Source: Calditerrivibrio sp. (GTDB lineage Bacteria > Chrysiogenota > Deferribacteres > Deferribacterales > Calditerrivibrionaceae). From it: a stretch of 50,987 nt of DNA. The stretch is from assembly GCA_026415135.1 (NCBI GenBank), contig JAOAHS010000021.1, forward strand, positions 1-50,987, written 5' to 3'. The notes beneath the pieces are model-generated. The model ran no database searches. It had not been told where the DNA came from and was given only the letters and a program-made list of their open reading frames with translations. The position numbers and the translations under genes were made by a program. Of this stretch, positions 31,004 through 31,141 are shown piece after piece (positions within the stretch are counted from its first letter, which is position 1; every line of letters begins with the position of its first letter).

Positions 31004-31019
31004 TGTAACATTTCTTACA
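31004..31019 (+). promoter_or_regulatory. NifA-type upstream activator site (TGT-N10-ACA)
   Basis: TGTAACATTTCTTACA is an exact TGT-N10-ACA, the NifA binding consensus. It is centred about 110 bases upstream of the predicted nifH start site, within the usual NifA range. It starts 13 bases after the draT stop. The motif has only six fixed positions, so its location next to a sigma-54 promoter is what makes it credible. Confidence 0.75.
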
Positions 31020-31094
31020 ATACATTATCCCAATTTATAACAAAACATAGAAAGCATAAATTTAACATATTGACAAACAATAACTTTTGCATCG

Positions 31095-31111
31095 ATGGCA
31101 CGGATATTGTT
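31095..31111 (+). promoter_or_regulatory. Sigma-54 (-24/-12) promoter of nifH
   Basis: TGGCACG at 31096-31102, then 4 bases, then TTGTT at 31107-31111. This matches the TGGCACG-N4-TTGCW consensus except T for C in the -12 element. GG (-24) and GT (-12) have the required spacing. The start site is predicted near 31122, giving a 20-base leader containing GGAGG at 31131-31135. Confidence 0.88.
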
Positions 31112-31141
31112 GTTTATTGTTTTATAAAAAGGAGGTTTTTT

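Follow-up and report, generated by a model that had tools for sequence, protein, structure and literature searches.

A predicted NifA- and sigma-54-dependent control region upstream of nifH in Calditerrivibrio, a member of the Deferribacterota

Introduction

The control of nitrogen-fixation (nif) genes by the activator NifA and the sigma-54 factor RpoN is a textbook regulatory circuit. In the nifH promoters of Pseudomonadota such as Klebsiella, Azotobacter and the rhizobia, a TGT-N10-ACA upstream activator sequence (UAS) lies about 100 bases upstream, a -24/-12 promoter precedes nifHDK, and NifA combines an AAA+ domain with a helix-turn-helix. Here we describe a region with the same elements in front of nifH in a hot-spring bacterium, Calditerrivibrio sp., on contig JAOAHS010000021.1 (C21) of a 1.98 Mb genome; this contig of 50,987 nucleotides (51 kb; 101,944 positions scored over both strands) is referred to below as the window.

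A consensus for the Pseudomonadota NifA/RpoN nifH promoters is quoted in PMC4999443, and a survey (PMC12316311) places predicted sigma-54 elements ahead of nif genes in Aquificia, Chlorobiia, Opitutia and others. Calditerrivibrio belongs to the Deferribacterota, from which the Aquificales are thought to have acquired their nif genes (PMC3733012). A literature search, with most subscription journals outside its coverage, returned no paper on NifA/sigma-54 control in this phylum.

Results

All of the control sites fall within the 150-base gap between draT and nifH (30992-31141). The putative UAS, TGTAACATTTCTTACA, occupies 31004-31019, with no strand assigned, and its TGT-N10-ACA extends to TGTNA-N6-TNACA. 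It is followed on the + strand by a candidate sigma-54 promoter, TGGCACGGATATTGTT (31096-31111; TGGCACG-GATA-TTGTT), in which TGGCACG at 31096 matches the -24 form TGGCAC/T; by a predicted transcription start at about 31122, placed by promoter geometry 12 nt downstream of the -12 base; and by a ribosome-binding site, AGGAGG (31130-31135), located 6 nt before the nifH ATG (31142). The UAS is centred at about -110 relative to the predicted start, within the 80-150 bases characteristic of NifA enhancers. An earlier inspection of the DNA letters, the sequence-only reading, had described a complete control region with these sites in canonical order and spacing; UAS, -24 element and ribosome-binding site are all where it placed them, and "complete" is a slight overstatement because the C at -12 is missing. 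No sigma-70-like site was found wholly inside 30992-31141.

Taken singly, neither motif is informative within the window: TGT-N10-ACA occurs 17 times against 12.7 expected, and -24/-12 matches with up to three mismatches occur 36 times against 35.8 expected, so that significance from either by itself was rejected. The ordered pair, defined as a UAS followed by a -24/-12 element after a gap of 30-160 bases, is present once on the two strands of the window, upstream of nifH (shuffled-window mean 0.3; per-region null 0.000). A position weight matrix (PWM) trained on 54 nifH promoters from outside the Deferribacterota, mostly Pseudomonadota, places the nifH promoter 8th of all scored positions (p=0.017 against shuffled upstream DNA); the rank is no higher because the -12 C is missing, and the score is therefore conservative, the training step having favoured C at -12. 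We note that, of all -24/-12 matches in the window, TGGCAAGAAGTTTGCA (39449-39464, - strand) scores highest. It lies some 40 bases ahead of a flagellin modification gene of Maf/PseD-like type (37537-39408), which has flhB as a neighbour. A plasmid blastn search with the control region as query gave one weak match, which was unrelated.

Conviction in the nifH site comes instead from its conservation among relatives. In a set of 20 Deferribacterota nifH upstream regions (this one and its relatives, including the G048-G050 branch), a -24/-12 element lies 42-86 bases before the nifH ATG in every case, and in 18 of them a TGT-N10-ACA site is found 49-155 bases from that element, where shuffles gave an expectation of 0.014. 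Applied to a non-cyanobacterial, non-Frankia comparison set, mostly Pseudomonadota, this test recovered the UAS/sigma-54 pair before nifH in 49 of 56 regions; it recovered the pair in none of 15 Cyanobacteria and none of six Frankia, lineages not known to have NifA/sigma-54 control of nif genes; the difference between Deferribacterota and the latter two groups has a Fisher p of about 1e-9, although the sequences are related and the p-values are indicative only. A search of 10 genomes for a UAS with TGGCA returned 30 loci, which were checked for a complete sigma-54 element; six carried one, three at nifH, one at the ferredoxin gene fdx, one near nifA (G048) and one in G007, such that five of the six are at or near nif genes and the G007 element is the exception. 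In G022, a genome of another family, contig C61 (L178) carries a nif region with the gene order of C. nitroreducens and near-identical promoters, and the genus mates of G022 have no nifH; this region is either a recent transfer or a misbinned contig.

The sequence-only reading had predicted control by RpoN and NifA in a lineage outside the Proteobacteria, with nifA outside the window. The lineage is indeed a deferribacterotal one, the closest relative (G001) being of the same genus, and the genome encodes both regulators: a single RpoN (TIGR02395, 433.7 bits; cut-off 277) and a NifA of 531 amino acids on contig C1 (20990-22546; TIGR01817, 557.9 bits; NCBIfam equivalog cut-off 528.9). The reading had named a genome lacking both nifA and rpoN as grounds for rejecting its prediction, and the prediction survives that check. 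This nifA is part of a second nif cluster with nifB, nifE, nifN, nifX, a nif-specific ferredoxin gene (fdx) and a nifV-like gene that scores below its equivalog cut-off. No NifL over its cut-off was found. Across the phylum, a NifA over or just under its cut-off accompanies nearly all genomes with molybdenum-type (Mo) nifH, the exceptions being G013, which is 64% complete, and G038, in which the contig with nifH probably stops short of the expected nifA; no Deferribacterota genome without nifH has a NifA over the cut-off.

The nifB-nifV intergenic region of this genome (L176, 10742-10804; G000, contig C1) contains a single UAS (10766-10781) between two back-to-back sigma-54 elements, one for nifB (10742-10757) and one for nifV (10789-10804), and in C. 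nitroreducens comparable elements stand before nifB, fdx and nifE. Since nifA lies downstream of nifB, it is probably under its own control. The shared UAS is only 7-8 bases from each -24 element, where a distance of 80-150 bases is usual. At the AAA+/linker junction, the motif C-X11-C-X19-C-X4-C is found in most NifA proteins of the Deferribacterota, the last pair being C-X2-C in the three Calditerrivibrio-type proteins, this one included (L079/L001). The motif is missing from 15 of 16 Pseudomonadota NifA compared. Two cysteine pairs at this junction are described in general terms as the NifA redox sensor of alpha- and beta-Proteobacteria (PMC10590331), and from these cysteines an oxygen-responsive NifA is predicted.

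We favour, at a probability of roughly 90%, an enhancer-dependent sigma-54 promoter for nifHDKT, here probably with modABC, that is switched on by NifA bound at about -110. NifA from the contig C1 cluster would bind the palindrome as a dimer; when oxygen and fixed nitrogen are low, looping of the DNA would bring it into contact with the closed complex of sigma-54 RNA polymerase (31096-31111), and its AAA+ domain would hydrolyse ATP to open the promoter. DraT and DraG would then adjust NifH activity post-translationally.

Several features weigh against this reading. The spacing GG-N10-GT, with TTGTT in place of the usual TTGC, departs from the GC expected 10 bases after the GG, and the C present at 55 of 56 sites of the Pseudomonadota set is absent here; no perfect UAS is present in L021 or L026; the inner half-site is TGTNA in Deferribacterota instead of the TGTCG of the Pseudomonadota form; and TGTNA-N6-TNACA has the outer geometry of CRP-type sites. 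The last of these, together with 11 strong sigma-54 activator domain matches in the genome (NifA included), raises the alternative of a real promoter with a regulator other than NifA, either a CRP/FNR-family or other protein on the palindrome at 31004 or a different sigma-54 activator as the partner. We consider this unlikely. The G at position 4 of the CRP consensus is present in 0 of 27 UAS, the site differs from the CRP/FNR operator TGTGA-N6-TCACA, NifA tracks nifH across the phylum, and complete UAS/sigma-54 sites fall at nif genes; moreover, CRP/FNR proteins are not known to open sigma-54 promoters.

The half-sites themselves differ between clades. Of the 36 Deferribacterota half-sites, 30 have A at position 5, and of the 98 others 65 have G; base composition was rejected as the cause, since A is also found in L023 and L030, which are richer in G+C. 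On the protein side, the recognition helix of NifA is T[V/I]RQxNYR in Deferribacterota and TPRQ[I/V]AYR in Pseudomonadota, with exceptions in L071 (N to D) and L076 (N to R). The half-site and helix changes appear to go together, as a correlation across two clades only.

Upstream of the control region are draG (29264-30160, - strand; PF03747 ADP_ribosyl_GH, 212 bits) and, divergent from it, draT (30197-30991, + strand; PF07357, 290 bits), whose DRAT family was found solely in nifH-bearing genomes of the phylum (18 of 50 searched); where a second nifH-like gene is present, a second DRAT gene accompanies it in several genomes. Downstream, all on the + strand, the equivalogs of a nif structural operon follow in order: nifH (31142-32011; 289 amino acids; TIGR01287, 473.6 bits, cut-off 394), nifD (32051-33487; TIGR01282, 796 bits) and nifK (33447-35009, true start probably at about 33495; TIGR01286, 718 bits). 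A small open reading frame of 70 amino acids (35046-35258) is nifT-like by sequence and position, and precedes modA (35273-36010), modB (36020-36694) and modC (36698-37531), of which the first two exceed their cut-offs (TIGR01256, TIGR02141) and the third is below its own (TIGR02142). In G048 (L182, 6804-9635), an IS3-like transposase gene on the opposite strand seems to split nifK, whose C-terminal part resumes about 1.4 kb downstream.

That modABC shares the nifH control region, as had been suggested, is plausible here: nifT and modA share a strand across a 14-base gap, no + strand terminator-like site was found at the junction, and co-transcription with nifHDKT is likely in this genome. The arrangement is not conserved in C. 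nitroreducens, where modABC is on the opposite strand and convergent with nifT. In some Alphaproteobacteria, modABC is known to be controlled by NifA (PMC4999443).

The orientation of draT admits another possibility, that nifHDK is transcribed mainly by read-through from a sigma-70-type promoter before draT and that the control region is of little importance. A sigma-70-like match, TTGACT-16-TAATAT, is present before draT at 30160-30187, and draT, oriented as nifH, ends 12 bases before the UAS with no + strand terminator found in between. Such matches, however, are about as common as chance predicts (13 found, 11.1 expected), and none of the 20 genomes compared has lost the -24/-12 element, including those with draT elsewhere or reversed; we think read-through improbable. 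Both it and a binder other than NifA are less likely than ordinary activation of the sigma-54 promoter from a NifA enhancer.

Retention of C at -12 is seen in nine of the 20 Deferribacterota nifH promoters, T or A being present in the other 11; because of this prevalence we provisionally name the nifH site a predicted sigma-54-type promoter whose -12 deviation is typical of the lineage. Within this genome, sites combining a sigma-54 element, a ribosome-binding site and an ATG have C at -12 in five cases, T in three and A in three, with no matches to a reversed control pattern; the corresponding count in seven Pseudomonadota genomes returned few sites. Two explanations were dropped: a nif-specific relaxation, given that T or A at -12 is also found at many other such sites in these genomes, and base composition, the AT-rich L035 and L036 (27% G+C) keeping C while L024 and L034 (46-48%) have lost it. 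That the missing C and the PWM rank of only 8th reflect a decayed, weak or inactive nifH promoter is very improbable, T or A being the majority state in the phylum with all else kept, and being shared by these other sites against zero controls. Promoters of Deferribacterota may be under-called by sigma-54 models that insist on GC at -12.

Discussion

The NifA-activated sigma-54 promoter proposed here represents an established mode of regulation in a phylum that has received little study, and it would extend the NifA/RpoN nif circuit to the putative source phylum of the Aquificales nif genes. We judge it about as likely as not that the Deferribacterota have a NifA clade of altered DNA specificity (TGTCG to TGTNA, with P to V/I and A to N in the helix) and nif promoters tolerating T or A at -12. 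If so, NifA of Pseudomonadota would poorly activate Deferribacterota promoters, and vice versa, and sigma-54 matrices requiring GC at -12 would miss many promoters in the phylum; the two clades offer a testable pair for the co-evolution of NifA and its enhancer.

The large 2025 sigma-54 survey (PMC12316311) reports no nitrogen enrichment in its remaining classes and, in the parts consulted, names Deferribacteres only for motility; a class-level statistic of this kind need not exclude single genes.

Compared with the Pseudomonadota systems, those of Deferribacterota have a relaxed -12 C, A and not G at UAS position 5, a gap of 49-155 bases between UAS and promoter where 95-98 is mostly seen, the T[V/I]RQxNYR helix in place of TPRQ[I/V]AYR, and no NifL over its cut-off. 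On the protein side there is a likeness to the cysteine-type NifA of alpha- and beta-Proteobacteria, which senses redox state without NifL, and from which Calditerrivibrio NifA, this one included, differs by the C-X2-C spacing of its last cysteine pair.
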